Shown here: positions 21,380 to 36,296 of the stretch, piece after piece
Layout: each line of letters opens with the position of its first letter
Numbering within the stretch: position 1 is the stretch's first letter
Assembly: GCA_013388735.1 (NCBI GenBank)
Contig: JACAES010000016.1
Coordinates: 1-39,120 of the forward strand
Reading direction: 5' to 3'
DNA length: 39,120 bases
Origin: Chloroflexota bacterium
GTDB lineage: Bacteria > Chloroflexota > Anaerolineae > Aggregatilineales > Phototrophicaceae
Notes under the pieces: generated by a model
The model's input: only the letters and a program-made list of their open reading frames with translations
The model's database searches: none
Told to the model about the DNA's origin: nothing
Position numbers and translations under genes: made by a program

Positions 21380-22738
21380 CTAGCCCCCTTCGCGGATTTT
21401 GACGAAATAATCGGCCACGCCGTTCTGCCCGCCCTTGAGCGAAATTTCCAGGCCGTCAAAACGCGGCTGGCCGGAACTGGCGCGGCACAGCGGCGCGCCG
21501 GGCGCAATCGGCACGATCACTTCCAGCGCGTAAATGCCAAGCTGCCTGGAAGTGTAACCGCAGGTATCGCCGCCGGCCACGCAGGCGCGTTTGAGGTCGG
21601 TGCGTTCCAGGATGTCGCGCAGGATCAAACCCTGCTGCGTCCCCAGGCTGTTGCCGACCGTTTTCGGGTCGAGGCCGATGGACGCCATATGCGCTTTAGT
21701 CTGTTCGATGGCCGGGTCGTCCGGGCCGTGTGCCGAATACAGCAGGGCGCTGTGACCATCGCTCAGCACTTCCAGCGCTGCCTGAACGGCCTGTTCGCGG
21801 GCGGCGTCGGCGGTGGCCGGGTCTACCAGACAGGGCGAATCCAGCCGGATGCCCACAAAACCGTGTTCCAGCGCGTAATCAATCTGCTCGGCGGTGGGCG
21901 GCGCGGCGCTGCCGGATACCACCACCAACTGATCTACCCGCCCCGGCGACTTGAGCGACTCCGGTTTTTCCACCACGCCGGCCTGCTGCCAGTGAGACGT
22001 GAGCGCGTATTCCAACCCGGACGAGCCGACCATAAACACCGGTTTGTCGCCGCGCCGGCTCCAGACGATGCGCCCGATATGCGCCAGGTGGCGCTGGTCG
22101 AAGGTGTCGAAGAAGATGATTTCCGTGCCGTCATCCACGAGCGTCTGGAAGCGGGCGTCAATGGCGGCGTCGGAGTCTTCCATGTGCCAGATGTCAATCA
22201 GGCCCATCGAGCGCCGGCTCTGTTTGCTCAGGTGCAGGCGCAGGTCGCTTTCGTTCATGGGCGTGATCGGATGTTTGCTCATGGTCGGGTGGCGATCCAG
22301 CCGGTAGGTGATGTCGCCCACGCGGGCGAACAGGTTGCCGAACAGCACGTAGCGCCGCAGCACTGGCGCGCCGACCACCAGCGGCACGAAGGGCGGGTCG
22401 AACACCTGGAAGCCGATTTCGATGGCATGGCCGATGCTGCCCACCGTCGGCGACGAGTCAAACGTCGAGCAGATTTTGTAATGGAAGAAGGGCGCGTCCA
22501 GCGCCTTCAGGGCGCCAAACTTCGGGAACAGTTCCTCGTCCATCTGCGCCGGGGACATCGAACGGCTGACGCCCGCCACGCCGACGGCGCGCACGCCGGC
22601 AAACCGCCCGCCAAGCTGTTCCGGCGTTGGTGGCTCTAAAAACAGCACCGTCGGCACGCCGTTGATTTGCAGCGCTTCCATCACGTCGGTCGAGCCGGTG
22701 AAGTCGTCGCCGTAAAAAGTGAGTAATAGTTGGGTCAT
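21380..22738 (-). CDS. oiaK: DUF1537 four-carbon-acid-sugar kinase family, probable 3-oxo-isoapionate kinase (452 aa)
   Basis: This family phosphorylates sugar acids with ATP. The N-terminal substrate domain opens with FYGDDFTGSTDVMEAL (Asp11-Asp12) and continues with YKICSTFDSSPTVGSIG near 87-103 and HPITPMNESDL at 156-166. The C-terminal nucleotide domain includes LVVVSGSAAPPTAEQ near 271 and GGDT at 389-392. The length of 452 residues is usual. It lies downstream of a RuBisCO-like protein and a D-apionate lactonase on the same strand, opposite an apionate oxidoisomerase arm. Known D-apiose loci use such a kinase (OiaK) to make 3-oxo-isoapionate 4-phosphate. That assignment rests on context; erythronate/threonate-type kinases are the alternative. 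Confidence 0.8.
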   Translation of the reverse strand: MTQLLLTFYGDDFTGSTDVMEALQINGVPTVLFLEPPTPEQLGGRFAGVRAVGVAGVSRSMSPAQMDEELFPKFGALKALDAPFFHYKICSTFDSSPTVGSIGHAIEIGFQVFDPPFVPLVVGAPVLRRYVLFGNLFARVGDITYRLDRHPTMSKHPITPMNESDLRLHLSKQSRRSMGLIDIWHMEDSDAAIDARFQTLVDDGTEIIFFDTFDQRHLAHIGRIVWSRRGDKPVFMVGSSGLEYALTSHWQQAGVVEKPESLKSPGRVDQLVVVSGSAAPPTAEQIDYALEHGFVGIRLDSPCLVDPATADAAREQAVQAALEVLSDGHSALLYSAHGPDDPAIEQTKAHMASIGLDPKTVGNSLGTQQGLILRDILERTDLKRACVAGGDTCGYTSRQLGIYALEVIVPIAPGAPLCRASSGQPRFDGLEISLKGGQNGVADYFVKIREGG

Positions 22739-22777
22739 GATGTTTTCCTTTTTGAGTTGATGAGTCCAGACTCATTT

Positions 22778-22923
22778 GCCCTCACCCCTTCGTTCCCCCT
22801 CGCTCAACCGCTACTTCGCAGCCAGGCGAGGGGGATGCAAGGCGGTCAACCAATCGTAGGGGCGGCCCAACGTGGCCGCCCTTACACCCCTCTGCCGGCG
22901 CAGCGCGCGGCGAGGGTGAGGGC
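22778..22923. repeat. Composite inverted repeat between the kinase and RuBisCO-like genes
   Basis: GCCCTCACCC at 22778-22787 and GGGTGAGGGC at 22914-22923 bound a 146-base element. Inside it, 22856-22867 and 22874-22885 form a 12-base stem with one mismatch (GTAGGGGCGGCC type). It is MITE-like but has no transposase. It stretches the spacer inside the leftward operon. Confidence 0.75.
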
Positions 22924-22936
22924 AGAAACGCCGCGG

Positions 22937-24217
22937 CTACCCGCCCGGCGATTGCGTGCCGAACCTGTCGAGCGCCTGGCGCAGTTCGGGATGGTCGGCG
23001 GCGTAATCGTTCAGCGGAACGCCCATCACCGCCGCTTCCCAGGCCTGCATCAGCGAGCGCACCCCGGCAGCCGGCCCGCCCGGATGCCCTTGGATGCCGC
23101 CCCCGGCGATGTACATAAAGTCGGTGGTCTGCGTCAGGCGATACGTGTCCGGCACTTGGCCGGCCCACATGCCGGAGCCGACCACCGGCAGCAGCCGGTC
23201 GGCGGGCCGAAACAGCGGCGTCAAACACTGACGGATGGCGTTCACCACCGACTCGTCGGCTTCCCAGTATTTGTTGCGCAGGCCGTTGACGTGCAGTTGG
23301 TCTACCCCCACCAGCCGCCAGATTTTGTTGTAGGCGTTAAATTCCATGCCCAGCAGCGGGCAGCGCGTCAGAATCCCCCAGCCGTTGCGGTGGGCATGGA
23401 TGGGAAGCTGCGCGCGCTGGCGCAGGTAGCGCACCCCGGCATAGCCAATGTGGTTGATGTTGACCATCACGCAGGTCGCGCCGGCTTTCAGCACCGTATC
23501 GTGGCGGCGCACCATCTCGTCGGGGTCGTCGCTGCTGATGTTGAAGGCGTACATGGTCTTTTTGCCGGCGCGCTGCGCCGCTTCGTTGATGACGGCCATC
23601 ACCGCCGCCGCGCGTTTTTCGATAGTCGAATAAGGCGGGTTGGTCATCTTCTCGTCGTCTTTGACGAAATCCACCCCGGCATCAACCAGGGCGCGCACGA
23701 TGTCGGCGGTCTGTTCCGGCGTCAGGCCAACGTTGGGTTTGATGATCGAAGCGATAATCGGGCGGTCGTAGACCCCGATCAGGCGGCGCGTGCCTTCGAT
23801 GCCGAAGCCCGGCCCCGGATGCGCGTCCGCGAAGGCCGGCGGCAGTTCAAAGTCCAGCAGGCGCACGCCGGAAAGCTCCTTCAGTTCGGTGACGCCGCCG
23901 GCGATGACGGCCAGCACGGTTGCCAGTTCCGTCCCGGTGATGTCCAGCGGGACGGCCAGAGTCACATCGGCGCGGTAAAAGGTGCCATCGGTTGGCGAGC
24001 GGCTGCCGAACGGCAGGGCAGGCGCGCCGGTCACGGTTTCCAGCGGGCGCACGTTTTCGACGCGGACGGAAAACCGCTGTTTGAGGGCCGCTGTCTCGCC
24101 GGGGACTTTGGTGAACGTCCCGGCGGACATATTGGCGGCCATCAGCGCGGCGGCTTTTTCCGGCTCAAACGGCGACTCAATCCGGTAGGTGCAGCGAATA
24201 ATGTCAGCGGCGGTCAT
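22937..24217 (-). CDS. RuBisCO-like protein, probable 3-oxo-isoapionate-4-phosphate decarboxylase or transcarboxylase/hydrolase (426 aa)
   Basis: This form IV RuBisCO-superfamily enzyme keeps most active-site residues. Lys160 (IIKPN) matches the catalytic Lys175 of plant RuBisCO. Lys186, Asp188 and Glu189 (DFVKDDE) match the carbamylated lysine and metal ligands. His276-Arg277, His309, Lys316 (HVNGLRNK) and the phosphate loops GSGM and AGGGIQGHPGG are also present. Lys177 is replaced by Asn. It should therefore bind Mg2+ and a phosphorylated keto-acid. Between the lactonase and kinase genes, it best fits the D-apiose pathway. There it would either release CO2 to give L-erythrulose 1-phosphate (OiaC) or cleave to 3-phosphoglycerate and glycolate (OiaX). 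Sequence alone does not decide between them. Confidence 0.9.
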   Translation of the reverse strand: MTAADIIRCTYRIESPFEPEKAAALMAANMSAGTFTKVPGETAALKQRFSVRVENVRPLETVTGAPALPFGSRSPTDGTFYRADVTLAVPLDITGTELATVLAVIAGGVTELKELSGVRLLDFELPPAFADAHPGPGFGIEGTRRLIGVYDRPIIASIIKPNVGLTPEQTADIVRALVDAGVDFVKDDEKMTNPPYSTIEKRAAAVMAVINEAAQRAGKKTMYAFNISSDDPDEMVRRHDTVLKAGATCVMVNINHIGYAGVRYLRQRAQLPIHAHRNGWGILTRCPLLGMEFNAYNKIWRLVGVDQLHVNGLRNKYWEADESVVNAIRQCLTPLFRPADRLLPVVGSGMWAGQVPDTYRLTQTTDFMYIAGGGIQGHPGGPAAGVRSLMQAWEAAVMGVPLNDYAADHPELRQALDRFGTQSPGG

Positions 24218-24271
24218 GATAGTGTCCTTACAATCGGGTTATGCAGGCATATCCGCAAACGCTATTGACCC

Positions 24272-24305
24272 CACCCCTGGCCCCTCCGAATTCAGGCAAG
24301 GGGTG
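24272..24305. repeat. Short G/C-rich inverted repeat between lactonase and RuBisCO-like genes
   Basis: CACCCCT at 24272-24278 pairs with AGGGGTG at 24299-24305. The words resemble the other CCCTCACCC-type spacer repeats. Confidence 0.45.
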
Positions 24306-24329
24306 AAAGACGGTGAAGGCAAACGTTTG

Positions 24330-26261
24330 TTAAACGCTGTCCAGCCGCGCCAGACCGAAAGGCGGCAGCCGCACGCCCAGGCCGTCCGCGCCCGCTTCGA
24401 CCGGCTGCCCGCTCATGGCGCGCCAGCCTTCAGGGTCGCGCATGGCGTTTTCGGCGCTGGTTTCGTCCAACAGCTGTAAGCGCCACATCCCGGCCAGCCC
24501 CGGCAGCCGGGCCGCCTGTTCATGCCTGGTGAAGTTGACCAGCAGCAGCCGCGTTCGCCCGTCTTTGCGCAGCGCCAGGCCGTCCACTATCAGCAGATCG
24601 CTGGACGTTCCGGCGATCACCTGGCCGCCCCGTAACTCGCCCACATCAGCAAAAACGTGATACATCGGGAAGACGCCGCCGGGAATGGAGCGGAATTTGT
24701 CCGGCGCGGGCGAGCCGGCAGCGGTTTCCATCACGCCGCGCCAGCCGGTCGTTTCGTAGTAGGTCAGCGAAGCCGCGCCGCTTTCGGCCAGATATTTGAT
24801 GCTGCCGACCGTCCAGCCTGCGCCGTACAGCGACATCTGGCGCGCGTCCACCTGGGGCGGCAGTTCGCCGGGCGGCGTGGCCGGTTCCGGGGCGGTCGCA
24901 TTGGGATTCCAGCGCATCTTAAACGTCACCGGACTAATGACCACCGGCAGGCCGTTAGCGAACGCGCGCGCGCTGCGCACGGTTTCCGCCTGGGTCGCCA
25001 GCGTCTCCGTCACCGAGGCGTTATCTACGGCGTGAACCGTGCCGTTGAGCGAATACGTCACGAAGTCGGCTTCGTCCACCGGCGGGCGTTCGCGGTTGAG
25101 TTCGGTGAAAAAGGCGTCCGTCCCCGCGCCGACCGGGGCGCGTTTCGCCCACTCGTCCAACTTCTGACGGACGAGGTTCACCCAGCCCGCCCGCGTAGAT
25201 TTTTCGCCTCGGCGGAAGACCAGGATTCGGGCGATGGCCGGTTGCAGTTCGTCCAGCAGGGCGCGGAAGGTCGTTAACTCGGCTTCGGCGTTGTCGGTCA
25301 GGTGCAGCGCGATCTCCAGCGCCGCGCTAATCGCCGCCGCTTCCGCCGCCGCCTGCCGGAACGAGTCCACCCAGTCCGGCAGCCAGGGGCGAACGTCGGC
25401 GCGCAGGTGCGCCAGGTTAAGCGCCTTCAGCCGCGCGGTCTCTTTATCCGTCAGCGGTTGGCCGTGACCGGCGATTCCCAGCCCCAGCGGCGGCAGCGGA
25501 GCGGCCTCGTCCGACAGGGTGAAGGTTAAGTCGGCGGCATCGGCGGACAGCGCCGGCGGGCTGCCGATCAGGCGCAGGGTGACGGCCTGCCGGATGACCG
25601 TCCCGGCCTCGACCGTGACCGGGAAGGGCAGCTCCAGCGGCGTGCAGTAAGTCTTAAAGGAAGCGTCCGTCCAGTTGCGCTGGTCTTCCATCTCGAAGGT
25701 GTCGCCTTCCATCCGCACTTCGGCGCGCACGCCCGGCGCGACCTCGTGGGTGATGGCGCGCAGGTCGAAAAACGGCTGGTGCGGCGCGATGTGCAGCGGA
25801 AAGGCGCTCTCGCTGATGTGGCCGTTCACGTCCTCAATCGTGCAGGGCTGGCCGGCGCAGGTCATCGGGTGCAGCACGCAGAAGCCGATGCGGTTGCGCC
25901 TGAAGGTCGAAAGCGCCTGGCCGTCAAATTCAAACGTGATCGTGCCGTCCGGCGCGCCGGTGAGCGCGCCTGTCCAGACGAAGTGAAGGTCGCCGCGCCG
26001 GTGTTCCGAGCGGTAGCGGATGGCGAACGAGTCCCGCCGGACATCCATCTGCACGTCGGACAGGCTGCCGGGAACCGTCCCCCAGTTATGGTCACGGACG
26101 GCGGCGTAAATCTGGCGCAGCACTTCGCGGCTGCCCAGCCGGATATAACGCAGGCTGCCGTCCTCGTAGGTCAGCGTCAGCGGCCCGGCCTGGAGCGTGA
26201 CCGGTTCGGGCAGGGGGTCGGGGCTGCCATAGTACAGTATCGTCTGGGAAAAAGGGTTCAT
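24330..26261 (-). CDS. apnL: Probable D-apionate lactonase (643 aa)
   Basis: D-apionate lactonase opens D-apionolactone to D-apionate in oxidative apiose catabolism. The ATG at 26261 gives 643 residues, the size expected for this family. The N-terminus (QAGPLTLTYEDGSLRYIRLGSREVLRQIY, then VRDHNWGTVPGSLSDVQ near 55-70) resembles the ApnL sequences I recall. A beta-rich N-terminal half is followed by a TIM-barrel-like helical part (about 265-480) and a beta C-terminal domain, like a glycoside-hydrolase fold. GGAAAGG lies upstream of the start. It is the first gene of the leftward arm, divergent from gntR. No active-site motif is known to me, so the call rests on overall similarity plus context. 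Confidence 0.78.
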   Translation of the reverse strand: MNPFSQTILYYGSPDPLPEPVTLQAGPLTLTYEDGSLRYIRLGSREVLRQIYAAVRDHNWGTVPGSLSDVQMDVRRDSFAIRYRSEHRRGDLHFVWTGALTGAPDGTITFEFDGQALSTFRRNRIGFCVLHPMTCAGQPCTIEDVNGHISESAFPLHIAPHQPFFDLRAITHEVAPGVRAEVRMEGDTFEMEDQRNWTDASFKTYCTPLELPFPVTVEAGTVIRQAVTLRLIGSPPALSADAADLTFTLSDEAAPLPPLGLGIAGHGQPLTDKETARLKALNLAHLRADVRPWLPDWVDSFRQAAAEAAAISAALEIALHLTDNAEAELTTFRALLDELQPAIARILVFRRGEKSTRAGWVNLVRQKLDEWAKRAPVGAGTDAFFTELNRERPPVDEADFVTYSLNGTVHAVDNASVTETLATQAETVRSARAFANGLPVVISPVTFKMRWNPNATAPEPATPPGELPPQVDARQMSLYGAGWTVGSIKYLAESGAASLTYYETTGWRGVMETAAGSPAPDKFRSIPGGVFPMYHVFADVGELRGGQVIAGTSSDLLIVDGLALRKDGRTRLLLVNFTRHEQAARLPGLAGMWRLQLLDETSAENAMRDPEGWRAMSGQPVEAGADGLGVRLPPFGLARLDSV

Positions 26262-26338
26262 CAAAAAAACAACCTTTCCAACAAAATGCACAAAACAGTT
26301 TGCGCGCCAGGGGTGAAGCCGGTACAATCACCGACCAC

Positions 26339-26367
26339 TTGACAATATACAGCATATTGTATACAAT
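26339..26367 (+). promoter_or_regulatory. Promoter TTGACA-N17-TACAAT with embedded operator (gntR / apnL divergent region)
   Basis: TTGACA at 26339-26344 and TACAAT at 26362-26367 are 17 bases apart, a near-consensus promoter reading toward gntR. The 12-base palindrome ATTGTATACAAT (26356-26367) covers the -10 box. An additional dyad ACAATAT-N5-ATATTGT lies at 26342-26360. A bound regulator would block this promoter and probably the divergent apnL promoter. Confidence 0.8.
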
Positions 26368-26421
26368 CTCATTATACACTAATTCTGGCGCGCCGCAACT
26401 AATGGCTTTAAGGTTTTTTTG

Positions 26422-27117
26422 ATGAAAGTTTTTTCTCAAATCCGCCCGGTCAGCCTGCGCGAGCAGGTGGCCGAACAAATCCGCACAGCCATCATCGAAG
26501 GGCGACTGAAGCCGAACGATCATGTTGTGGAAGCCGCGCTCACCGAGCAGCTTGGCGTCAGCCGCACCCCCGTCCGCGAGGCGCTCATCATCCTGGAACG
26601 CGAAGCTCTGATCGTCACCGTCCCGCATCGCGGCGCGTTTGTGCGCGCCTTTAACGAAGAGGACGTGGAAGCCCTGTTCTCGATGCGTACCACGCTGGAA
26701 AACTTCGCCGCCGAGCTGGTCATTGATCGCCTGGGCGACCAGGATTACACCTATCTGGAAGACCTGGTGGACAGGCAGCGCCATTACATCGAACAGAATG
26801 ACTTCAAGCAGGTGCGCAGCACCGACATGGCCTTCCACCAGTATCTGATTAGCTACAGCGGCCATCCTCTGCTGATGCGCAGTTGGGAAGAAATCGTCGC
26901 CCAGGTGGCGGCGGTGCTGTACCTGCGCGCCGAAGCCCAGCCGGACTACGACGAATACCTGGCGATCAGCGATCACTGCGCCATCCTGGATGCGTACCGC
27001 GCGCGCGACCTGGAAAAAGTCAAAGCCGAAAACCGGCGCATCAACAACCGCGTGGCGGCGGAGTGCCTGTCGGCAGTGCGCGTGTTAAAGGGACGCGCGG
27101 ACGGCAGCGCGCCCTGA
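26422..27117 (+). CDS. GntR/FadR-type regulator with FCD domain (231 aa)
   Basis: This is the probable local regulator of apiose catabolism. The ATG at 26422 is preferred over a TTG one codon upstream, with AAGG eight bases before it. The winged helix spans about 8-75: LREQVAEQIRTAIIEGRLKPNDHVVEAALTEQLGVSRTPVREALIILEREALI. The FCD effector domain follows (about 85-215), where STDMAFHQYLI, GHPLLM and SDHCAILDAY carry the usual metal- or ligand-binding Asp and His positions. Its target is suggested by the identical palindrome ATTGTATACAAT upstream of itself and of the ABC importer. The inducer is likely apiose, apionate or a pathway intermediate. Confidence 0.92.
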   Translation: MKVFSQIRPVSLREQVAEQIRTAIIEGRLKPNDHVVEAALTEQLGVSRTPVREALIILEREALIVTVPHRGAFVRAFNEEDVEALFSMRTTLENFAAELVIDRLGDQDYTYLEDLVDRQRHYIEQNDFKQVRSTDMAFHQYLISYSGHPLLMRSWEEIVAQVAAVLYLRAEAQPDYDEYLAISDHCAILDAYRARDLEKVKAENRRINNRVAAECLSAVRVLKGRADGSAP

Positions 27118-27176: not shown

Positions 27177-27188
27177 ATTGTATACAAT
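27177..27188. promoter_or_regulatory. GntR operator copy 2 (ATTGTATACAAT) before the ABC importer
   Basis: It is identical to 26356-26367, including one flanking G/C on one side. It contains a TACAAT that could be a -10 box with TTTAAC 16 bases upstream. It lies 164 bases before the binding-protein ATG. Confidence 0.82.
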
Positions 27189-27222: not shown

Positions 27223-27351
27223 ATGATGACAGCCCGACGACATAAACAGAACCGTTGAGGCAGCAAAAGGAGGCGCCAGACAACCACACAATCTGAATGG
27301 TCACGAATATACGGTGTTCGTCAGCTTAGAGAAATTTTGAAAGGAAACATC

Positions 27352-28389
27352 ATGCTGAACAGATTCCCGAAAATTGGCATCAGCCTGGTCGTCGCAGCCA
27401 TGCTCGCCACCATGATCTTCGGCGCTGCTGCTGCCCAGGACCCCCTCAAAATTTGCTTCGGTTTCCAGGACCTAGAGACGGAATTCTGGGTGGCCGGTCA
27501 CAAGGCCATCACCGAAACCCTGCGCGCGGCCGGCCACGAAGTGCTGGAATACAACGCCAACGAAAACCCCGACCGCCAGCTTGAGCAGGTGCGCGAGTGC
27601 ATCGCTCAGGGCGTGGACGGCATCATCATCATCCCGCAGGATGGCGACAGCGCCGTGACCATCATCGGCGAAGCCCAGGATGCCGACATCCCGATTGCGG
27701 TCTTCAACCGTCCGCCCAATGATCGCAGCAAGGGCATCACCGTCGTGGCCGACAACGTGAGCGCCACCGAACAGGCCGTCGAGTTCATCGCTCAGAAGGC
27801 GCTGGCGAAGTGGGAAGCCACCGGCGTGCAGATCAAGCCCCTGATTGTGGTGGGCGCGCTGCAGGACACCAACGCCATTGGCCGTCGTGAAGGTTTCTTC
27901 AACGTCATCAACCGCTACAACGAGAAGTACCCCGGCATGTTCGCCGACCCCATCGAAGTCGCTTCGGAATGGGACGCCGCGACCGCGCTGGCGAACCTGG
28001 AAGCCGCCATCACCGCTAACCCGGATGTGGACTTCCTGTACACCTCGTCGGACTTCCTGTTCCCGACCATTCGCTCGGTGCTGGAACCGCGCGGCAAGTG
28101 GGTGCCGATGGGCCAGCCTGGGCATGTGCTGATGGCCGGCCTCGACGGTGACGCCACCGCCTGTATGCTGATCGAACAGGGTTACGTGGACGCCACCGGC
28201 GTGCAGAACCTGTTCTATGAAGCCGAACTGACCATGAACCGGCTGCTCCAGGCCGTCGCCAACGGCGAAACCCAGCCCAACGAAGTGCTGCTCGACCCCG
28301 GCTTCGCGCTGACGGCCGGCAACTTCAGGTGGCAGGACGTGGACATGTGGGGCTGCAAGCTGTACTACGAAGGCTTCCTCGACCAATAA
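27352..28389 (+). CDS. Sugar ABC transporter periplasmic binding protein (345 aa)
   Basis: This is a type I (RbsB-like) solute-binding protein of the CUT2 sugar importer class. Residues 1-28 form a Sec signal peptide ending in GAAAAQ. Mature-domain blocks follow: FGFQDLETEFWVAGHKAITETLRAAGHEV, NPDRQLEQVRECIAQGVDGIIIIPQDGDSAV and NRPPNDRSKGITVVADNVSATEQAVEF. A Cys pair (ACMLIEQ and WGCKLYYE) is present in the C-terminal lobe. AAAGGAAA precedes the ATG at 27352, and a weaker upstream TTG is rejected. It is the first gene of the importer operon under the GntR operator. Apiose is the expected ligand from the neighbours; other sugars cannot be excluded. Confidence 0.9.
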   Translation: MLNRFPKIGISLVVAAMLATMIFGAAAAQDPLKICFGFQDLETEFWVAGHKAITETLRAAGHEVLEYNANENPDRQLEQVRECIAQGVDGIIIIPQDGDSAVTIIGEAQDADIPIAVFNRPPNDRSKGITVVADNVSATEQAVEFIAQKALAKWEATGVQIKPLIVVGALQDTNAIGRREGFFNVINRYNEKYPGMFADPIEVASEWDAATALANLEAAITANPDVDFLYTSSDFLFPTIRSVLEPRGKWVPMGQPGHVLMAGLDGDATACMLIEQGYVDATGVQNLFYEAELTMNRLLQAVANGETQPNEVLLDPGFALTAGNFRWQDVDMWGCKLYYEGFLDQ

Positions 28390-28438: not shown

Positions 28439-28475
28439 CCGACCGTATTAAACACGGAAGTTGAGGCAAAGGGCC

Positions 28476-29666
28476 GTGTCTACGCTTGATGATCGTCTGA
28501 ATCCCGCCGCAGTCCGTATCATGCCGGTGGCGAAAGCCGAAGCGGCGTCCCGGCGCGCCGAGCGCCCCCTGCTGGCCTTTCTTCGCCGGGTGCTGCTTTC
28601 GGATTATTTTATCCTGTATCTGACCATCTTCTTTTTTGTGGTCGCTTCGATTTTTTTCCCTACCCTGTCCGCCCCTGGGAACATCGCCAACCAGCTTTCC
28701 AATATGTGGCCGCTGCTGGCGGTTGCCGTCGGCCAGACCTTCGTGCTGATCCTGGGCGGCATTGACCTGTCGGTTGGCTCGATCATGGCCGTGACCAGCG
28801 TCGTGGGCGCGCTGTTCATCACGCAAACGCTGGACGCCCCCACCTTCGACAAAAGCCCCCTGTGGGGGACGCTCATTTCTGACCAGGGCGGCATCCTGGC
28901 CGGCAGTCCCAACGCTACCCTCATCGGTGTGATCGTTATGCTGCTGTTGGGGACGCTCATCGGCCTGTGGAACGGTTTCGCCATCACCCGTTTTAGGATG
29001 GCGCCGTTCATGGTGACGCTCGTTTCGATGATTTTTTTCAGCGCGCTGGCGCTGTGGCTGACCGCTTCTCGTAACATATCCGGCCTGCCGGAAGATTTTC
29101 TGGTGTTGGGCAAGGGCGATATCATCTCGGTTTATCTGGGGCCAAAACTGACGCCGGACATCGCCCGGCGCGACATCCTGCCGATGGTCACATATCCGTT
29201 TGTCATTGCCGTTGGCCTGGCAGTGGTGGCGCAGTTCATCCTCAGCCGCACCGTTTTTGGTCGCCAGATGTTTTCCATCGGCACCAACCGGCGCGCGTCC
29301 GAGGTTTCCGGCGTCCCCAGCCGCCGGGTGATGACGCTGGTCTACGGCTTCAGCGGTTTTTGCGCGGCGGTTTCGGCAGTGCTGTATTCCGCCCGCCTGG
29401 AAATTGGCCGCCCGTCCCTGGGCGACGGCCTGCTGATGGACATCATCGGCGCGGCGGTCATCGGCGGCACCAGCCTGTTCGGCGGCAAGGGTTCGATTCG
29501 CGGCACGTTTTTCGGCGTGGCCTTTTTCGTCCTGCTGCTGAACATCCTCAACGCCATGCGGCTGTCGCCGTTCGTGATTGACGCCATCAAGGGGCTGGTG
29601 ATCCTTGTCGCGGCGCTGCTGGACATCACCCGCACCCGTTTGATTAATCGGGAGCAGCGATCATGA
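28476..29666 (+). CDS. Sugar ABC transporter permease 1 (396 aa)
   Basis: This is an RbsC-type permease of the BPD_transp_2 family with about ten helices. The family block VAVGQTFVLILGGIDLSVGSIMAVTSVVGALF near 90-120 is present, and the coupling region includes GTNRRASEVSGVPSRRVMTLVYGFSGFCAAVSAVL. The GTG at 28476 is preferred; a TTG five codons earlier has no better site. It is longer than usual because of an N-terminal cytoplasmic stretch and an insert near 125-150. The stop overlaps the ATPase start (ATGA). The two permeases of this operon probably form a heterodimer. Confidence 0.88.
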   Translation: MSTLDDRLNPAAVRIMPVAKAEAASRRAERPLLAFLRRVLLSDYFILYLTIFFFVVASIFFPTLSAPGNIANQLSNMWPLLAVAVGQTFVLILGGIDLSVGSIMAVTSVVGALFITQTLDAPTFDKSPLWGTLISDQGGILAGSPNATLIGVIVMLLLGTLIGLWNGFAITRFRMAPFMVTLVSMIFFSALALWLTASRNISGLPEDFLVLGKGDIISVYLGPKLTPDIARRDILPMVTYPFVIAVGLAVVAQFILSRTVFGRQMFSIGTNRRASEVSGVPSRRVMTLVYGFSGFCAAVSAVLYSARLEIGRPSLGDGLLMDIIGAAVIGGTSLFGGKGSIRGTFFGVAFFVLLLNILNAMRLSPFVIDAIKGLVILVAALLDITRTRLINREQRS

Positions 29667-31201
29667 CCCCCATCCTGGAAACGCAAAATCTGAGCAAAGC
29701 CTTTTTCGGCATCGCCGCCGTTCAGGACGTGAGCATCCAGGTCGGCCAGGGGCAAATCCTGGGTTTGATCGGGCAGAACGGCGCGGGCAAAAGCACGCTG
29801 ATGAACCTGGTCGGCGGTGTGGTGCAGCCGGACAGCGGGACGATGCTGTACCAGGGCAAACCCTATGCCCCGCGCAGCCCCGCCGACGCGACCCACGCGC
29901 GCATCGCCTTCATCCACCAGGAACTTAACCTGTTCACCAACCTGACGATTGCCGAGAACATCTTCATCGAAGGTTTCCCCACGCGCGGGCGCGGGCCGTT
30001 CCGCCTGATTGACCGCGCCGCCGTCCGCAGCCAGTCCCGCGCGGTGCTGGAAGAAGTCGGCCTCGACCTGTCGCCGGATATGGTGGTAGACCGCCTGTCG
30101 CCCGGCGAGCGCCAGTTGGTGGAAATCGCCAAGGCGCTGTATCTGGACGCCTCGCTCATCATCCTGGATGAGCCGACTACCTCGCTGACCACCCGTGAAA
30201 CCGATAAACTGTTCGGCATCATGCGCCGCCTGCGCCAACAGGGCAAGGCGCTGGTGTACATCTCGCACATCCTGACCGACGTGCTGGCGATTGCCGACCA
30301 GATCGCCATCATGCGCGACGGCCTGCTGGTGACGCAGGAACCCGCCGAAAACTTCGACGTGAACCGCATGATCGCCCTGATGGTTGGGCGCAGCATCGAG
30401 CAGTTGTATCCGCCGCGCACGTCCAAGCCGTCCAGAGAAAAACTGCTGGAACTGAGCGGAATCAGCGCGCGCGGCATCGTGCAGGACATCCATCTCACCA
30501 TTCATCAGGGCGAAGTCGTTGGGCTGTTCGGCCTGATGGGATCGGGGCGCACCGAGCTGGCGCGTATGATGTTCGGCCTGGACACTTTCGAGCAGGGGCA
30601 GATCGCCGTCAACGGCAGCAGCCTGACGCGCACGTCCGCCCGGCAGAGCATCCGCAACAACGTCGCCTTCGTCACCGAAAATCGGCGCGAAGAAGGTCTG
30701 CTGATGAACATCAACATCGCGGACAATATCGCCCTGGTATCGCTGCCGTCCTTCGCCGCCGCGCTGACGCAGATCATCAAACAGCGCGACATGGTGGACG
30801 CGGTGCAGCAGGTCGCCGGCGCGCTCCAGCTTAAAAGCGGCAACATCGTGGTGCAGCCGGCCAAAAGCCTGAGCGGCGGCAACCAGCAGAAGGTCGTCGT
30901 CGCCAAGTGGCTGCTGTCGCAGCCGACCGTCTTCATCATGGACGAACCGACGCGCGGTATTGATGTGGGCGCCAAGTACGAAATTTACAGCATCATTGAC
31001 CAACTGGCCGCCGGCGGCAGCGGCGTGCTGTTCATCTCCTCGGAACTGGAAGAACTGATGGGCATGTGCGACCGCATCCTGGTGATGAGTCGCGGCGAAA
31101 TTTTTGGGGCGTTCACGCGGGAGGAATTCGACCAGGAAGCCATCCTGCGGGCGGCCTTCCGCGAGACGAGTAACGGCAGTAACGGGAGCAACGGCGCATG
31201 A
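29663..31201 (+). CDS. Sugar ABC transporter ATPase with two nucleotide-binding domains (512 aa)
   Basis: This is an RbsA/XylG-type tandem ATPase. Domain 1 has Walker A GQNGAGKST at 37-45, signature LSPGERQ near 145 and Walker B LIILDEPTTS near 165. Domain 2 has GLMGSGRTELA, where Arg replaces the Walker A lysine as is usual in this class. It also has signature LSGGNQQKV and Walker B VFIMDEPTRGIDVG. Start and stop overlap both neighbouring permeases by four bases (ATGA). A short Asn/Gly/Ser repeat tail ends the protein. Confidence 0.95.
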   Translation: MTPILETQNLSKAFFGIAAVQDVSIQVGQGQILGLIGQNGAGKSTLMNLVGGVVQPDSGTMLYQGKPYAPRSPADATHARIAFIHQELNLFTNLTIAENIFIEGFPTRGRGPFRLIDRAAVRSQSRAVLEEVGLDLSPDMVVDRLSPGERQLVEIAKALYLDASLIILDEPTTSLTTRETDKLFGIMRRLRQQGKALVYISHILTDVLAIADQIAIMRDGLLVTQEPAENFDVNRMIALMVGRSIEQLYPPRTSKPSREKLLELSGISARGIVQDIHLTIHQGEVVGLFGLMGSGRTELARMMFGLDTFEQGQIAVNGSSLTRTSARQSIRNNVAFVTENRREEGLLMNINIADNIALVSLPSFAAALTQIIKQRDMVDAVQQVAGALQLKSGNIVVQPAKSLSGGNQQKVVVAKWLLSQPTVFIMDEPTRGIDVGAKYEIYSIIDQLAAGGSGVLFISSELEELMGMCDRILVMSRGEIFGAFTREEFDQEAILRAAFRETSNGSNGSNGA

Positions 31202-32220
31202 GCATGAATATCCTCAAGGCGAATCGCGGCGCAAACGGGCGAACCAACATCGCTCAACTGCTGCTTAACTATTCCACCATCATCCTGTTCATCGCCGTAT
31301 TCCTGGTGTTTGGCCTGTCGTCGGACAAGTTCATCACGGTCGAAAGCCTCATCAACATCACCAAACAGGCATCCTTCACCGGCATCATCGCCGTCGGCAT
31401 GACCTTCGTGCTGCTGACGGCGGGCATTGACCTGTCGGTCGGCTCGAATATGTATCTGTCGTCGGTGGTGGCCGGGCTGCTGATGCGCCACGCCGGTTTC
31501 GAGGTGATTCCGGCGCTGCTGGCAGCCCTGATCGTCGGCACACTGTTTGGCGCGTTTAACGCCTTCTGCATCGTCAAGCTGAAGATCGTGCCGTTTATGG
31601 TCACGCTCGGCACACTGGTGGTCGGGCGCGGCATCGGCACGGCGCTGACCGAATCGAAGCAGATTGACTTCCCGCGCCCCATGCTGGACTTCGGCCTGAT
31701 TTCGGTGGCCGGCATCCCCATGCCGATCATCGCCTTCATCCTCATCATCGCGCTAGGTTACATCATCCTCACCCGGACGCCGATCGGGCGGCAGGTTTAC
31801 GCCGTCGGCAACGACATCGAGGTGGCGAAGAAGGCCGGCATCAACACCGACCGCATCATTACGCTGGTGTACATCGTGTCGGGCTTCTGCGCGGCGCTGG
31901 CGGGTTTCATCCTTATCGCGCAGATAGGCCGTCTCGACCGCAGCTTTGGCGAGGGCAAGGAGTTCGACGCCATCGCGGCGGCGGTGCTGGGCGGCACCAG
32001 CCTGTTCGGCGGCGTGGGCAACGTGATGGGGACGGTCATCGGCGCGCTGCTCATCCAGCTTGTACAGTACGGCCTGCAATTCCATAACGTCAACCTGTAC
32101 ATTCAGCCGATGGTGCGCGGCGGCATCATCTTCATCGCCGTGTTTTTCGACAGCCTGCGCGAGGCCAACCTCGCCAAGCTCAAACGGCGCTTCATCCGTC
32201 CGCTGGATGCGTCGGGCTAA
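31198..32220 (+). CDS. Sugar ABC transporter permease 2 (340 aa)
   Basis: This is a second RbsC-type permease with about ten helices. The block GIIAVGMTFVLLTAGIDLSVGSNMYLSSVVAGL is near 61-94 and GNDIEVAKKAGINTDRIITLVYIVSGFCAALAGF near 203-236. A GGTSLFGGVGNVMGTVIGALL segment lies near the end. The ATG overlaps the ATPase stop. It completes the operon binding protein-permease-ATPase-permease. A repeat-filled spacer separates it from the apionate oxidoisomerase gene. Confidence 0.92.
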   Translation: MSMNILKANRGANGRTNIAQLLLNYSTIILFIAVFLVFGLSSDKFITVESLINITKQASFTGIIAVGMTFVLLTAGIDLSVGSNMYLSSVVAGLLMRHAGFEVIPALLAALIVGTLFGAFNAFCIVKLKIVPFMVTLGTLVVGRGIGTALTESKQIDFPRPMLDFGLISVAGIPMPIIAFILIIALGYIILTRTPIGRQVYAVGNDIEVAKKAGINTDRIITLVYIVSGFCAALAGFILIAQIGRLDRSFGEGKEFDAIAAAVLGGTSLFGGVGNVMGTVIGALLIQLVQYGLQFHNVNLYIQPMVRGGIIFIAVFFDSLREANLAKLKRRFIRPLDASG

Positions 32221-32227
32221 CAGCAAG

Positions 32228-32344
32228 CCCTCACCCTAAATCCCTCTCCCGACCGTCCCTTCGGGACTGGGAGAAGGACTTCAGAAAGCGTGTTTCTCCC
32301 CTTCTCCCAGCGCAGCGTTCGGGAGAAGGGGCTGGGGGATGAGG
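32228..32344. repeat. CCCTCACCC / GGGAGAAGGGG hairpin repeat after permease 2
   Basis: CCCCTTCTCCC at 32298-32308 pairs perfectly with GGGAGAAGGGG at 32321-32331. An upstream hairpin, GTCCC/GGGAC within CTCCC/GGGAG, sits at about 32246-32272. It shares words with 14685-14720 and 22778-22923. It may end or weaken transcription between importer and enzyme genes. Confidence 0.75.
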
Positions 32345-32460
32345 GCGGAATGGCGAGCAGCGCGATTGGCCGACTGAATCGCTAACGGCAATACCAAAGC
32401 CGATCATGGACGACCGACTTTGCAGACATCGCAACTTTAAATATTCAGGGAGTAAATGCC

Positions 32461-33318
32461 ATGCTTAAGGTAGCGTTGATGGGTGCGGGCGGTAAAATGG
32501 GCTGCCGCGTCACCGACAATCTGAAAAAAATGAGCGATAAATACGAGATGCGTTACGTCGAAATTAGCGAACAGGGTATCGCCAACCTCGCCAAACGCGG
32601 CCTCAAAACCACGCCGCAGAGCGAGGCGCTGCCGGACGCCGACGCGGTGATCCTGGCGCTGCCCGATAAACTGATCGGCAAAATCACGCACGAGATCATC
32701 CCGCTGCTCAAACCCGGCGCGATGGTCATCGGCCTCGACCCGGCAGCCGCCTATGCCGAAGTGATGCCCGTCCGCGACGACCTGACCTACTTCGTCAGCC
32801 ATCCCTGCCACCCGCCCATGTTCAACGACGAAGTGACCGAAGAAGCGCGCACCGACTGGTTCGGCGGTGTTCATGCCAAACATCACATCGTCAATGCGCT
32901 GTATCACGGCCCGGACGCCGACTACGAAAAAGGCAACGCCATCGCCCGCGACATGTACGCGCCGGTCTTAAACTCGTTCCGCATCACCGTCGAACAGATG
33001 GCGATTCTGGAGCCGGCGCTGGTAGAAACCTTCGCCGCCACCTGCATCAGCGCCATCAAGGAAGCTTACGACGAGGCGGTCAAAATGGGCGTCCCGGCGG
33101 ATGCCGCCTGGGAATTCCTGTCCGGCCATGCCCGCATTGAATTCGCCATCATCTTCGGTTTCTCCGGCTTCCCGTTCTCCGACGGCGCCAAACTGGCGAT
33201 TGCCAGAGCCTACGAGAAAATTTTTAAGCCGGACTGGAAAGAGAAAATCATGAACCTGGACGCGCTCAAGCAGAGCGTGGCCGAAATCACCGACAGCCTG
33301 AAGACGCCGGTGAACTAA
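32461..33318 (+). CDS. apnO: Probable D-apionate oxidoisomerase (285 aa)
   Basis: ApnO converts D-apionate to 3-oxo-isoapionate with NAD+. The Rossmann motif GAGGKMGCRVTDN spans 8-20. The family-specific HPCHPPMFNDE is at 114-124, and FGGVHAKHHIVNAL follows. A C-terminal 6-phosphogluconate-dehydrogenase-like helical domain includes RITVEQMAILEPALVETFAATCISAIKEA and FSGFPFSDGAKLAIA. Length and motif order match the ApnO proteins I recall. CAGGGAG lies before the ATG. It starts the run of four enzyme genes that ends with the apiose dehydrogenase, with tight spacing to the next gene (3 bases). Confidence 0.85.
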   Translation: MLKVALMGAGGKMGCRVTDNLKKMSDKYEMRYVEISEQGIANLAKRGLKTTPQSEALPDADAVILALPDKLIGKITHEIIPLLKPGAMVIGLDPAAAYAEVMPVRDDLTYFVSHPCHPPMFNDEVTEEARTDWFGGVHAKHHIVNALYHGPDADYEKGNAIARDMYAPVLNSFRITVEQMAILEPALVETFAATCISAIKEAYDEAVKMGVPADAAWEFLSGHARIEFAIIFGFSGFPFSDGAKLAIARAYEKIFKPDWKEKIMNLDALKQSVAEITDSLKTPVN

Positions 33319-33321
33319 CCC

Positions 33322-34380
33322 ATGACAACCCTGTCCCAACTCCGGCGAACGTTCGACGGCGTGGGCGAGTTGTACCATGCCCTGCCGCTGCAAAATGGCG
33401 CTGCTGCACTGCTCACGCAGCGGGGGGCGCGCGTCCTGGGGCTGTTCCTGGCCCCGGACGCGGATAACCTGTTCTGGACGAATGGTTCGCTGAATACCGC
33501 CGACACATTCCGCCGTTTCATCGCCGACGGCGAGTGGAACCTGGGCGGGGAACGCTGTTGGATCGCGCCCGAAATCCAGTATAACGTCCACGACCGGGCG
33601 GATTTTTTCGGCACGCTCCACGTTCCACCCGCGATTGATCCCGGCCACTACCTCATGGACACATCGGGGGGACTGGTGACGTTTCACCAGCAGATCACAC
33701 TGACGGCTTACAACACGGCCTCCGGTACAAAGCAGCTTGACATCACGCGAACCATTCGTCCGGTTCCTGACCCCCTGCGCGGGTTGAACGATCTGGCCGG
33801 CGTCCAGTATGCCGGTTACGAGCAGACCGTCGCGCTGGCGGAAAACGACGCGCAGCCGATCCTCAGCGAAATCTGGAATCTGGTGCAGGTGAAGGCCGGC
33901 GGCCATCTGATAATCCCCTGCGCGCCGGACGTGCAGGCGTCCGACTACTTCGGCAGCGTGCCGGAAGAAGCCCGCGCCGTACAGGGCGACCATCTGCGGC
34001 TGCACCTCACCGGCCAGCGCCAGTACAAAATCGGCTATCAGGCGGTTTATCTGACCGGGCGCATGGCCTACCATCACCACCTGCCGGATGGCCGCGATGT
34101 GCTGATCGTGCGTCAGTTTTTCAACAATCCATCGTCCATTTATGCCGAAGAACCGCCCGACCAACCGGGCAAAACCGGCCACTCCGTACACGTCTATAAC
34201 GACGGCGGGCAGTTCGGCGGTGATGGCGAGGGTTTTGGGGAAATGGAATGCAGCGGGCAGACCATCGGCCCGGCGGCAGGCCGGTCTGCCAGCACCGACA
34301 GCTTCCTGCTGTGGGTTTATGCCGGCCCCTCACAAGCGATCCGGCGGATCGCCGCGCTTTTGCTGGGCGTTCGACTATAA
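33322..34380 (+). CDS. Uncharacterised protein, possibly galactose-mutarotase-fold (352 aa)
   Basis: I do not recognise a characterised family. The protein is soluble, has no signal peptide and is rich in short beta-strand-like segments. Blocks such as FWTNGSLNTADTFRRF, LGGERCWIAPEIQYNV and HVYNDGGQFGG near the C-terminus recall mutarotase-like beta-sandwich proteins of the DUF6786/aldose-epimerase type. That resemblance is weak. It follows apnO by three bases and precedes a TIM-barrel gene, so co-expression with the apiose enzymes is likely. An aldose or lactone epimerase acting on apiose is a reasonable guess, not an assignment. Confidence 0.55.
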   Translation: MTTLSQLRRTFDGVGELYHALPLQNGAAALLTQRGARVLGLFLAPDADNLFWTNGSLNTADTFRRFIADGEWNLGGERCWIAPEIQYNVHDRADFFGTLHVPPAIDPGHYLMDTSGGLVTFHQQITLTAYNTASGTKQLDITRTIRPVPDPLRGLNDLAGVQYAGYEQTVALAENDAQPILSEIWNLVQVKAGGHLIIPCAPDVQASDYFGSVPEEARAVQGDHLRLHLTGQRQYKIGYQAVYLTGRMAYHHHLPDGRDVLIVRQFFNNPSSIYAEEPPDQPGKTGHSVHVYNDGGQFGGDGEGFGEMECSGQTIGPAAGRSASTDSFLLWVYAGPSQAIRRIAALLLGVRL

Positions 34381-34428
34381 CGGGGCGGGCTTGCGAACCG
34401 TCCCCGACAACCAGGGATAAAAAAGACC

Positions 34429-35247
34429 ATGACTATTTTAGGACTGGGCAGCTACGGCGTTGCCTGGGCAATTGGCGTGCCGGGTTACGAACAGCCTGCC
34501 GCGCCGATGGATGCATTCGCCTTCCTGAAGTTTGCCGACGAGCTGGGGCTGCGGCTGGTGCAGATCGCCGACAACCTGCCGCTGCACACCTTTTCCGACG
34601 ACCAGCTGCGCGCCGTCCGCGACGAGGCCGCCCGGCGTAATATCGCCGTCGAGGTGGGCGCGCGCGGCATCCAGACCGAATTTCTGCGCCGCTATATCCA
34701 GATCGCGCAGCTTTTTAATTCGCCTATTCTGCGCGTGGTGGTGGATACCAAAGAGCATCACCCCTCGCCGGAAGAAGTCGTCAGCCTGATTCGCGCCGTG
34801 CTGCCGGAACTGGAAGCGGCGGGCATCACCCTGGCGATTGAGAACCACGACCGCTTCAAGGCCAGAACGCTGGCGGACATCATCGAGGCGCTCGACAGCC
34901 CGCACGCCGGCATCTGCCTGGATACGGTCAATTCGTTCGGCGCGCTGGAAGGCTCGGAAGTAGTGGTGGATACACTGGGGCCTTACGTCGTCAACCTGCA
35001 CCTGAAGGAATTCGTCGTCAAACGCGCCGGTCACGCCATGGGCTTCGAGATCACCGGGCGTCCGACCGGGCAGGGCATGATGAACGTCCCCTGGCTGCTG
35101 GACAAACTGTACGGCTTCGGGCGGACGTTTAACGCCATCATCGAAGCCTGGCTGCCCATGCAGATCACCATCGAAGAAACGGTCGCCATCGAAGCCCGCT
35201 GGGCGCGCGAGGGCGTCGCTTATTTAAGACAGTTCATTAAGGATTAA
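34429..35247 (+). CDS. AP-endonuclease-2/xylose-isomerase-like TIM-barrel enzyme (272 aa)
   Basis: This is a metal-dependent TIM-barrel protein of the sugar-isomerase/epimerase superfamily (PF01261). Likely metal ligands are the Glu in LAIENHDRF, the Asp in ICLDTVNS, the His in VNLHLKEF and the Glu near the end in AIIEAWLP. EVGARGIQ lies near 75. It is three bases from the apiose dehydrogenase gene and in line with apnO. As far as I recall, one branch of apiose catabolism has a non-phosphorylated 3-oxo-isoapionate decarboxylase (OiaT), and I am not sure of its family. This protein could be that enzyme, or an epimerase. The superfamily call is solid; the function is open. Confidence 0.78.
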   Translation: MTILGLGSYGVAWAIGVPGYEQPAAPMDAFAFLKFADELGLRLVQIADNLPLHTFSDDQLRAVRDEAARRNIAVEVGARGIQTEFLRRYIQIAQLFNSPILRVVVDTKEHHPSPEEVVSLIRAVLPELEAAGITLAIENHDRFKARTLADIIEALDSPHAGICLDTVNSFGALEGSEVVVDTLGPYVVNLHLKEFVVKRAGHAMGFEITGRPTGQGMMNVPWLLDKLYGFGRTFNAIIEAWLPMQITIEETVAIEARWAREGVAYLRQFIKD

Positions 35248-35249
35248 CC

Positions 35250-36296
35250 ATGTCATCTGATAAACTCCGTTTTGCCATGTTCGGCACGGGTTTCTGGTCG
35301 TACTTCCAGCTTGCCGGCTGGCTGGAAACCGGCGAAGTCGAATGTGTGGCGCTGTACAACCGGACGAAATCGAAAGCCGAAAAGCTGGCCGCCCAGTTCG
35401 GCATCCCGCAGAGCGCCGTCTACGACAGCGCCGAAGCCCTGCTAGACAACCAAAAGCTGGATTTCGTGGACATCTGCACCGCCGTCGAACTGCACTACCC
35501 GCAGACGAAACTGGCGGCAGAACGCGGCCTGCCGGTGGTCTGCCAGAAGCCGATGGCAACCACGCTGGAAGAAGCCGAGGCGCTGGTGGGCATCTGCAAG
35601 CAGCACAACGTCCCGCTGTACATCAACGAAAACTGGCGCTGGCAGCACGCTATCCGCGCCTTCAAGGCGCAGCTGGATAAGGGGCATCTGGGCCGGCTGT
35701 TCCGCGCCCACATTGACTACCGCAACAGTTTCCCGGTCTTCGACAACCAGCCCTTTCTGAAGGAACTGGAGCAGTTCATCCTCACCGACATCGGCAGCCA
35801 CATCCTGGATACGGCGCGTTTCCTGTTCGGTGACGCCACCACGCTGTACGCCCACACGCACCGCGTCACGCCCGGCATCAAGGGCGAAGATTCGGCGACG
35901 GCCATGATGACGATGGGCGGCGGCATGACGGTGGTGGCCGATATGAGCTACGCCACCCGCCGCGAACATGACCGCTTCCCGGAAACCTATCTCCAGGTGG
36001 AAGGCGAATATGGCTTTTTGGAACTCGCGCCCGACTTCTGGATTCGGGAAACCACCGCCGCCGGCGTGTTCGCCGCGCGGCACAAACCGCCGCGTTATGC
36101 CTGGGCCGACCCGGCCTACGACGTGGCGCATTCCAGCATCGTGCCGGCGCAGTGGAACATCGCCCGCGCGTTGAAGGGGCTGGAACACGGCGAAACCAAC
36201 GGCGACGATAACCTGAAAACCGTCCGCCTCGTGTTCGGCTCATACGAGTCGGCGCGGACGGGGCGCGTGCTGGGCGCGGACGTGCTGCTGCCGTAA
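35250..36296 (+). CDS. apsD: Probable D-apiose dehydrogenase (Gfo/Idh/MocA family, 348 aa)
   Basis: ApsD oxidises D-apiose to D-apionolactone with NAD+. The Rossmann motif FGTGFWSYFQ is at 11-20, and CQKPMATTLEEAE at 98-110 holds the family's EKP-type lysine (QKP here). NENWRWQHAIRAFKAQLDKGHLGRLFRAHIDYRNSFPVFDNQP and ILTDIGSHILDTARFLFG follow. Together these closely resemble the apiose dehydrogenase sequences I recall. AAGGATTAACC precedes the ATG. It is the last gene of the rightward run and is followed by a GGGCGAGG hairpin (36325-36346). Confidence 0.82.
   Translation: MSSDKLRFAMFGTGFWSYFQLAGWLETGEVECVALYNRTKSKAEKLAAQFGIPQSAVYDSAEALLDNQKLDFVDICTAVELHYPQTKLAAERGLPVVCQKPMATTLEEAEALVGICKQHNVPLYINENWRWQHAIRAFKAQLDKGHLGRLFRAHIDYRNSFPVFDNQPFLKELEQFILTDIGSHILDTARFLFGDATTLYAHTHRVTPGIKGEDSATAMMTMGGGMTVVADMSYATRREHDRFPETYLQVEGEYGFLELAPDFWIRETTAAGVFAARHKPPRYAWADPAYDVAHSSIVPAQWNIARALKGLEHGETNGDDNLKTVRLVFGSYESARTGRVLGADVLLP

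Follow-up and report, generated by a model that had tools for sequence, protein, structure and literature searches.

A probable oxidative D-apiose catabolic locus with a RuBisCO-like protein in an Anaerolineae-like genome

Gene content and pathway enzymes of the locus

The stretch of DNA analysed here (the window) is 39,120 bases long and spans contig C126 in full; the Chloroflexota genome it belongs to measures 4.27 Mb and is 94% complete. Positions 21380-36296 carry a locus in which three minus-strand genes, encoding an OiaK-like kinase, a RuBisCO-like protein (RLP) and an ApnL-like lactonase, diverge from nine plus-strand genes that encode a GntR-type regulator, the four components of a sugar ATP-binding cassette (ABC) importer, an ApnO-like oxidoisomerase, a DUF6786 protein, an AP_endonuc_2 (AP2) protein and an ApsD-like dehydrogenase. 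Homology and gene context make an oxidative D-apiose catabolic locus very likely, and it is probably functional. Apiose is an uncommon branched sugar from the cell walls of plants; its oxidative pathway is known mainly from proteobacteria.

The predicted 3-oxo-isoapionate kinase, an OiaK-like four-carbon acid sugar kinase (21380..22738, minus strand), has NF042436 as its best NCBIfam family (526 bits, 6e-158, under the curated cut-off of 700), with the next family at 180 bits. The RLP (22937..24217, minus strand) best matches the OiaX family NF042437 at 576 bits, again below a curated cut-off of 700, and the ApnL-like D-apionolactonase (24330..26327, minus strand) matches NF049900 as its sole family at 346 bits, below a cut-off of 750. 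The ApnO-like D-apionate oxidoisomerase (32461..33318, plus strand; PF16896, 7.8e-54) and the ApsD-like dehydrogenase of the Gfo/Idh/MocA type, a putative D-apiose 1-dehydrogenase (35250..36296, plus strand; PF01408), have weak, general NCBIfam matches only. Their best solved structures are 5t57 for ApnO (252 bits, runner-up 216) and 5uhw for ApsD (242 bits, runner-up 79), both of which presumably stem from apiose work.

Plasmid loci of the alphaproteobacteria Martelella (L004) and Salipiger (L005) served as references. Both encode a PGDH_C protein, a four-carbon acid sugar kinase, a NanR-type regulator, a hypothetical protein of 577-594 amino acids, a Gfo/Idh/MocA dehydrogenase, an ABC importer and an annotated OiaX; the pathway names other than OiaX (ApnO, OiaK, ApnL and ApsD) are given here by homology. 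In BLASTP comparisons with L004 and L005, the window RLP is 53-54% identical to OiaX, ApnO 48 and 47%, OiaK 44 and 42%, and ApsD 37% identical to their counterparts, and ApnL matches over partial length (32% over 487 positions in L005, 37% over 144 in L004). The window gene products are distant homologues of the pathway enzymes. In a tree without 5uhw, sequences of Verrucomicrobiota, Bacteroidota, Deinococcota and Armatimonadota share a clade (support 100) with the window ApsD, outside the alphaproteobacterial ApsD clade, which includes the ApsD of another Chloroflexota locus (L007). The five enzyme functions have also been described in one cluster of Rhodobacteraceae strain LCG007, together with growth on D-apiose, in the available part of the source (PMC11747546).

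A genome_contigs scan with an RLP alignment returned at least 559 relatives, and the window proteins were mapped onto the best 80 loci. All five enzymes are encoded together in a locus of Armatimonadota (L016; ApnL-ApsD-RLP-OiaK-ApnO), two of Verrucomicrobiota (L024 and L091), one of Bacteroidota (L069; ApsD-AP2-RLP-OiaK-ApnO-ApnL-importer) and the phylum-mate L007 (ApnL-ApsD-RLP-OiaK-ApnO). Two further loci (L043 and L030) have four of the five, an ApnL match being absent, and a Deinococcota locus (L060) has three (ApsD, ApnL and RLP). Such recurrence of the five enzymes together, in varied orders, in loci of several phyla gives good support to an oxidative D-apiose pathway. The two nearest loci are from Anaerolineae, and both are cut by contig ends: L013, with an RLP of 77% and an OiaK of 80% identity and part of ApnL, and L014, with a GntR regulator of 70%, a binding protein of 78% and an RLP of 58% identity. 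In another Anaerolineae genome (G406) the five enzymes are split over two contigs. One of these (L202) carries ApnO (78%), ApsD (63%), AP2 (59%), the GntR regulator (64%) and a partial ApnL (43%); the other, that of L034, carries RLP and OiaK, which follow a GH127-cluster gene at a distance of about 4 kb.

A single marker, triose-phosphate isomerase, clusters the window genome with the L014 genome (75% identity; support of 100/99), and the host looks Anaerolineae-like. Within the phylum such RLPs are rare: 3 of 400 genomes, including the window's own, have one that reaches E <= 1e-80 against the OiaX model. No paper on this locus was found in the literature searched for apiose with RuBisCO-like protein, Chloroflexota and Anaerolineae.

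An earlier sequence-only reading had listed apiose, importer, RLP and GntR genes, all of which lie where it placed them, but it missed the DUF6786 and AP2 genes of the same run. Of its matches to pathway proteins, OiaK and ApnL hold as best families below cut-offs, and ApsD falls in a separate clade. A profile comparison such as it proposed places the apiose families first by wide margins for OiaK, OiaX and ApnL, though below the curated cut-offs; the ApsD tree puts this protein outside the alphaproteobacterial clade, and the structure search puts it closest to 5uhw. Its assignment to Chloroflexota agrees with the marker protein and the nearest loci, and homology and gene context likewise favour the import, GntR control and apiose catabolism that it predicted.

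Reaction type of the RuBisCO-like protein

Two reactions come into question for the RLP, which is probably either a 3-oxo-isoapionate-4-phosphate transcarboxylase/hydrolase or a decarboxylase. The decarboxylase OiaX makes L-erythrulose 1-phosphate, for which the isomerase LerI, of the triose-phosphate isomerase (TIM) family, is needed next. The second reaction (OiaT) has 3-phosphoglycerate and glycolate as products, and we take OiaT to be the 3-oxo-isoapionate-4-phosphate transcarboxylase/hydrolase of Xanthobacter autotrophicus. In the available part of the source, A. radiobacter K84 and X. autotrophicus are credited with RLPs that catalyse decarboxylation and transcarboxylation/hydrolysis of 3-oxo-isoapionate 4-phosphate (PMC6302742).

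Among 397 genomes of Hyphomicrobiales, the order of the Shinella genome G414, 67 encode an RLP at E <= 1e-80, and their scores against the OiaX model fall into two groups: 26 genomes at 758-791 bits and 41 whose best score is at most 488, with none between 488 and 757. The residue pair D281/Q309, numbered by the window RLP and defined in this analysis as the mark of OiaX, is present in all 26 RLPs of the curated OiaX class (at least 700 bits). The sub-700 RLPs were read in 20 of the 41 genomes, one RLP locus apiece, and all 20 have G281/H309. The window RLP is of this second, GH type (G281, H309) and does not have the OiaX pair. Scoring of 79 of the 80 genome_contigs RLPs gave 57 D/Q, 21 G/H and one A/H, the D/Q proteins being assigned to alphaproteobacteria, with L044 left unassigned. 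The one omitted, a Verrucomicrobia RLP (L030:10001-11242), has one in-frame stop in its record and is otherwise G/H-like.

Positions 281 and 309 presumably correspond to A299 and H327 of the spinach enzyme. In an alignment with RuBisCO 3a13, the KDDE and HR residues and H309 of the window RLP align, as does the K316 loop with gaps; among the active-site residues H309 alone distinguishes the window RLP from OiaX, the others being common to both. A tree of 37 rows places the window and L013 RLPs as sister to the D/Q (OiaX) clade, and thus outside it, with support of 99/97, and L014 branches next (96/95); a quick tree of 59 rows agrees on the placement of the window RLP.

The number of TIM-family matches (triose-phosphate isomerase homologues) per genome was used as a proxy for LerI. 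At least two were found in all 26 curated-OiaX Hyphomicrobiales genomes. Of the 41 sub-700 genomes, 39 have a single one, the exceptions being G540 (two overlapping pieces at one place) and G619 (two). Exactly one was also found in 13 of 13 Hyphomicrobiales genomes without an RLP, which were the first in the list minus G417 and G421 and not a random draw. The second TIM gene of the curated-OiaX genomes is as expected if LerI must follow OiaX; the association of OiaX class with LerI has a Fisher p of 1e-16, and in 13 of the 26 OiaX genomes a TIM match, one of them a fragment, lies within 10 kb of OiaX. Seventeen genomes from which the loci derive were also counted: the three with a D/Q RLP have 4, 2 and 5 TIM matches, and the 14 non-proteobacterial RLP genomes have one (12 genomes) or none (2 genomes). 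The window genome, at 94% completeness, has one TIM match, and no second was found. Loci longer than 9 kb have a LerI homologue near the RLP in 18 of 59 D/Q cases and 0 of 46 G/H cases (threshold of E <= 1e-15 and half the query length).

The curated score, the two residues and the genome content therefore speak against a canonical OiaX decarboxylase. Filing the RLP as OiaX by its NCBIfam top match was rejected, as it has neither a score above the cut-off nor the residue pair nor a LerI-type paralogue, and the database name OiaX is unsafe for it. The sequence-only reading had proposed RuBisCO-like C-C chemistry and left the reaction open; the RLP is there, but its function as a plain OiaX is disfavoured on these three counts. 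Given an apiose locus, it is reasonably likely that the RLP is OiaT-type, a likeness drawn from the proposed reaction and not from the sequence of OiaT.

Some neighbouring genes and genome contents bear on the products. Glycolate use is possible in the window genome, which encodes a single GlcD-like protein (357 bits against TIGR00387, with a cut-off of 568) and shows CCG-domain matches, seven in all, at four places. On an archaeal Haloterrigena plasmid (L101:9992-17807), an RLP, an OiaK-like kinase and a PGDH_C protein lie near the genes for pyruvate kinase (pyk) and enolase (eno), both within 6 kb of the GH-type RLP and kinase. In a Bradyrhizobium locus (L103) pyk is within 6 kb of such a pair, L157 also has pyk nearby, and in L043 LutA/LutB-like genes lie behind the apiose genes.

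Regulation, remaining genes and related loci

The regulator (26419..27117, plus strand) has both a GntR helix-turn-helix (PF00392) and an FCD domain (PF07729), with homologues of 70% identity in L014 and 64% in L202. The palindrome ATTGTATACAAT occurs exactly in the 91-base divergent gap between apnL and gntR (putative operator 1, 26356..26367) and in the 219 bases that separate gntR from the binding-protein gene (putative operator 2, 27177..27188). No third copy exists in the 4.27 Mb assembly, and a reversed control pattern gave none; since the pattern was derived from these two gaps and about 0.25 copies are expected elsewhere, the genome count speaks for the exclusiveness of the palindrome and not for its enrichment. 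When up to two mismatches are allowed, 6 of 100 shuffled versions of the window likewise give two matches, but the two real copies are exact and located in the regulatory gaps. A sigma-70-like promoter, TTGACA-17-TACAAT (26339..26367, plus strand), matches 11 of 12 consensus positions and is directed towards gntR, and its -10 box overlaps operator 1; the stretch contains three promoter-like sites, with 0.7 expected from shuffles.

Independent support for the operator comes from two of the Anaerolineae relatives. In L014 a perfect palindrome lies in the gap between gntR and the binding-protein gene, and ATTGTATGCAAT in the gap between the RLP gene and gntR; ATTGNATACAAT is found in one of 184 loci, which is L014. 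In L202 ATTGTGTACAAT, with one mismatch, lies 53 bases upstream of where the gntR alignment starts, and at up to three mismatches this locus has five palindrome matches with 2.9 expected. The form ATTG-N4-CAAT has no match in L013, L016, L030, L060, L069 or L007, and the one in L024 at 12981 lies inside the ATPase match and was not taken as an operator. We infer that GntR probably represses both transcription units via ATTGTATACAAT.

The importer genes, all on the plus strand, encode a ribose/apiose-type substrate-binding protein (27337..28389; PF13407), permease 1 (28461..29666; PF02653), a duplicated ATPase of monosaccharide type (29663..31201; PF00005 twice, AraG/XylG/RbsA-type models) and permease 2 (31198..32220; PF02653). 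In the Protein Data Bank (PDB) the binding protein matches 2ioy, followed by 4ry0 and 5ibq, and we take the latter two to bind apiose. Between permease 2 and ApnO (32215-32470) lie clustered inverted repeats of the CCCTTCTCCC type, which may represent a small repeat element.

The AP2 protein (34429..35247, plus strand; PF01261), of a xylose-isomerase-like family, is linked to ApnO and ApsD by its neighbours. It adjoins ApsD in the window, L060 and L069, ApnO in L030 and both in L202, with homologue identities of 59% (L202), 52% (L030), 44% (L069) and 52% (L060, partial). E138, D165, H191 and E239, presumably a metal site, are invariant in seven aligned rows. Among 15 RLP genomes searched, 5 have clear homologues, one of them being the window genome, and five more have weak ones (24-53 bits), and AP2 was rejected as a general LerI replacement on this count. 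The DUF6786 protein (33322..34380, plus strand; PF20583) has, among the loci examined, a homologue in the Trueperaceae locus L060 only, where it is 41% identical and adjoins the RLP; as a guess, it could be a sugar mutarotase. Its predicted structure is poor, with a predicted local-distance difference test (pLDDT) of 39 and a predicted template-modelling score (pTM) of 0.46, and was not used for fold search.

Neither Pfam nor a sequence search of solved structures gave a match for ApnL, whose true start is perhaps 22 codons inside the called open reading frame. The predicted model (pLDDT 84, pTM 0.85) resembles xylanase XynC, heparanase and GH51-type barrels in a Foldseek search of the PDB at 10-14% identity, the top ten having TM scores of 0.39-0.44 by query and 0.48-0.65 by target. 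E409 is invariant in 12 of 12 aligned sequences; all 8 non-alphaproteobacterial ones and none of the 4 alphaproteobacterial ones have E525. Because of the barrel-like model and this glutamate pattern, the lactonase may have descended from a clan-A glycosidase.

Eight of the related loci (L019, L027, L034, L046, L050, L055, L062 and L080) form a second RLP locus class with a GH127-cluster gene (Pfam checked in L019). Their available stretches have no ApnO or ApnL match; OiaK is present in seven of the eight and an Asp/Glu racemase-family gene in six. As GH127-type enzymes include the aceric acid hydrolase BT1003, according to the available part of the source (PMC10850190), these loci could, by analogy, serve a route for aceric acid or the freeing of apiose from pectin. 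Nucleoside-hydrolase-like genes lie in or beside apiose-type loci of unrelated bacteria (L007:5207-6103, L043:13596-15005 and L102:14721-15620) and might release apiose from glycosides. Elsewhere on the window contig, at 16318-19142, an ArsP-type permease gene lies near an ACR3-type arsenite efflux gene.

Proposed pathway, alternatives and significance

From the observed gene content, gene order and conservation we infer the substrate and the following steps. The ABC importer would take up apiose, ApsD would oxidise it to apionolactone, ApnL would open the lactone to apionate, ApnO would oxidise and rearrange apionate to 3-oxo-isoapionate, and OiaK would phosphorylate this product. The RLP, for which an OiaT-type reaction is favoured over an OiaX-type one, would then transfer the carboxyl group and hydrolyse the intermediate to 3-phosphoglycerate and glycolate, the two transcription units being governed by the GntR repressor. 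Jointly, an apiose locus with an OiaT-type last step has a probability of roughly 0.55.

The oxidative D-apiose pathway with OiaK and OiaX was reportedly described by Carter et al. in 2018. The window resembles this type of system in the co-location of ApsD, ApnL, ApnO, OiaK, an RLP, a sugar ABC importer and a GntR-type regulator. It differs in that the RLP has neither the D/Q pair nor the curated score, no second TIM was found and ApsD belongs to a separate clade; the run also has two permeases, no DUF2291 gene, and AP2 and DUF6786 genes in addition. With OiaT of X. autotrophicus the window RLP shares the proposed reaction and keeps RuBisCO-type active-site residues, but it stands phylogenetically next to OiaX. 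The LCG007 cluster shares the five enzyme functions, but it comes from Rhodobacteraceae and its RLP is named a decarboxylase in the available part of that source (PMC11747546).

Several observations weigh against an OiaT-type apiose locus. The OiaK- and ApnL-like proteins score below their cut-offs, and by descent the window and L013 RLPs are nearer to the OiaX decarboxylase than other GH-type RLPs are. The GH type is not apiose-specific, since 8 of 26 loci have a GH-type RLP and kinase without an ApnO match. The correlation with LerI amounts to one evolutionary event because the D/Q rows form a single clade, and a missing TIM is weak evidence in such assemblies because 2 of the 14 non-proteobacterial RLP genomes show none at all. 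The product hints are few: among 46 GH loci, pyk lies near three, eno near one and LutA/LutB near one, and the queries for these genes were taken from three of the loci counted. L103 and L157 are without apiose genes and L101 has only an ApnO-like one, a GlcD homologue lies near 0 of 46 GH and 1 of 59 D/Q loci, and LerK- and DerI-like genes are present in a single GH locus (L164).

The same apiose locus could instead have a true OiaX, forming L-erythrulose 1-phosphate that is isomerised towards erythrose 4-phosphate by an enzyme other than LerI, possibly AP2. The NCBIfam top match and the sister position to the OiaX clade agree with this, as does the presence, near ApnO and ApsD, of an isomerase-type AP2 protein that keeps four acidic or histidine positions; it is nevertheless doubtful, given an RLP below the curated cut-off and without the OiaX pair, a single TIM gene, and an AP2 distribution (clear homologues in only 5 of 15 RLP genomes) that makes it no general substitute for LerI. 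AP2 could also be a D-apiose isomerase or an OiaC-like decarboxylase and open a second apiose branch in parallel. On a plasmid of Pantoea sp. At-9b (L093), AP2 homologues of 31-36% identity lie beside ApnO and beside dihydroxyacetone (DHA)-kinase-family and triose-phosphate isomerase-family genes, and in L094 and L097 beside a DHA-kinase gene and a split transketolase, the enzyme names in these Pantoea-type branches being those we take them to have. The Pantoea locus resembles the window in its adjacent ApnO-like and AP_endonuc_2-like genes; it differs in that no RLP or OiaK is annotated in the stretch and LerI/LerK-type genes are present. A second branch is unlikely in the window, whose genome has no Dak1-family kinase match, so that the known product kinase is lacking for either activity of AP2, and the tree is small, with the Pantoea AP2 protein on a long branch.

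A locus for a related branched sugar or sugar acid, such as D-hamamelose, using homologous enzymes, would account for the GH-type RLP and kinase pairs that lack an ApnO match and for a binding protein just 24-25% identical to its L004 and L005 counterparts. The available part of one source also places an RLP at the last step of the hamamelose pathway, naming 3-phosphoglycerate and glycolate (PMC8914248). ApnO, ApnL and ApsD are all present in the window and best match apiose-locus enzymes, and 4ry0 and 5ibq stand second and third in the PDB list of the binding protein, all of which makes such a substrate quite unlikely.

The preferred reading, an apiose locus with an OiaT-type RLP, extends the pathway to Anaerolineae, with the five enzymes co-located also in Verrucomicrobiota, Bacteroidota and Armatimonadota, and it links DUF6786 and the AP_endonuc_2 clade, both uncharacterised, to the apiose pathway. 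It also suggests a rule by which two residues and LerI content separate two RLP reactions that perhaps share one database name. For the history of the family we tentatively propose, at somewhat less than even odds, that Anaerolineae RLPs keep an ancestral RuBisCO-like reaction, in which the carboxyl group would be taken off 3-oxo-isoapionate 4-phosphate and put onto the neighbouring carbon before hydrolysis to 3-phosphoglycerate and glycolate. The alphaproteobacterial OiaX would then have arisen once within this lineage, losing the second half of this reaction, with the changes at positions 281 and 309 and the recruitment of LerI. The window RLP may stand near the point where the decarboxylase function arose and, if this proposal is true, would be among the nearest relatives beyond the functional switch to decarboxylase. 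The rule and these neighbouring natural enzymes would make the origin of a decarboxylase from a carboxylation/hydrolysis enzyme directly testable.

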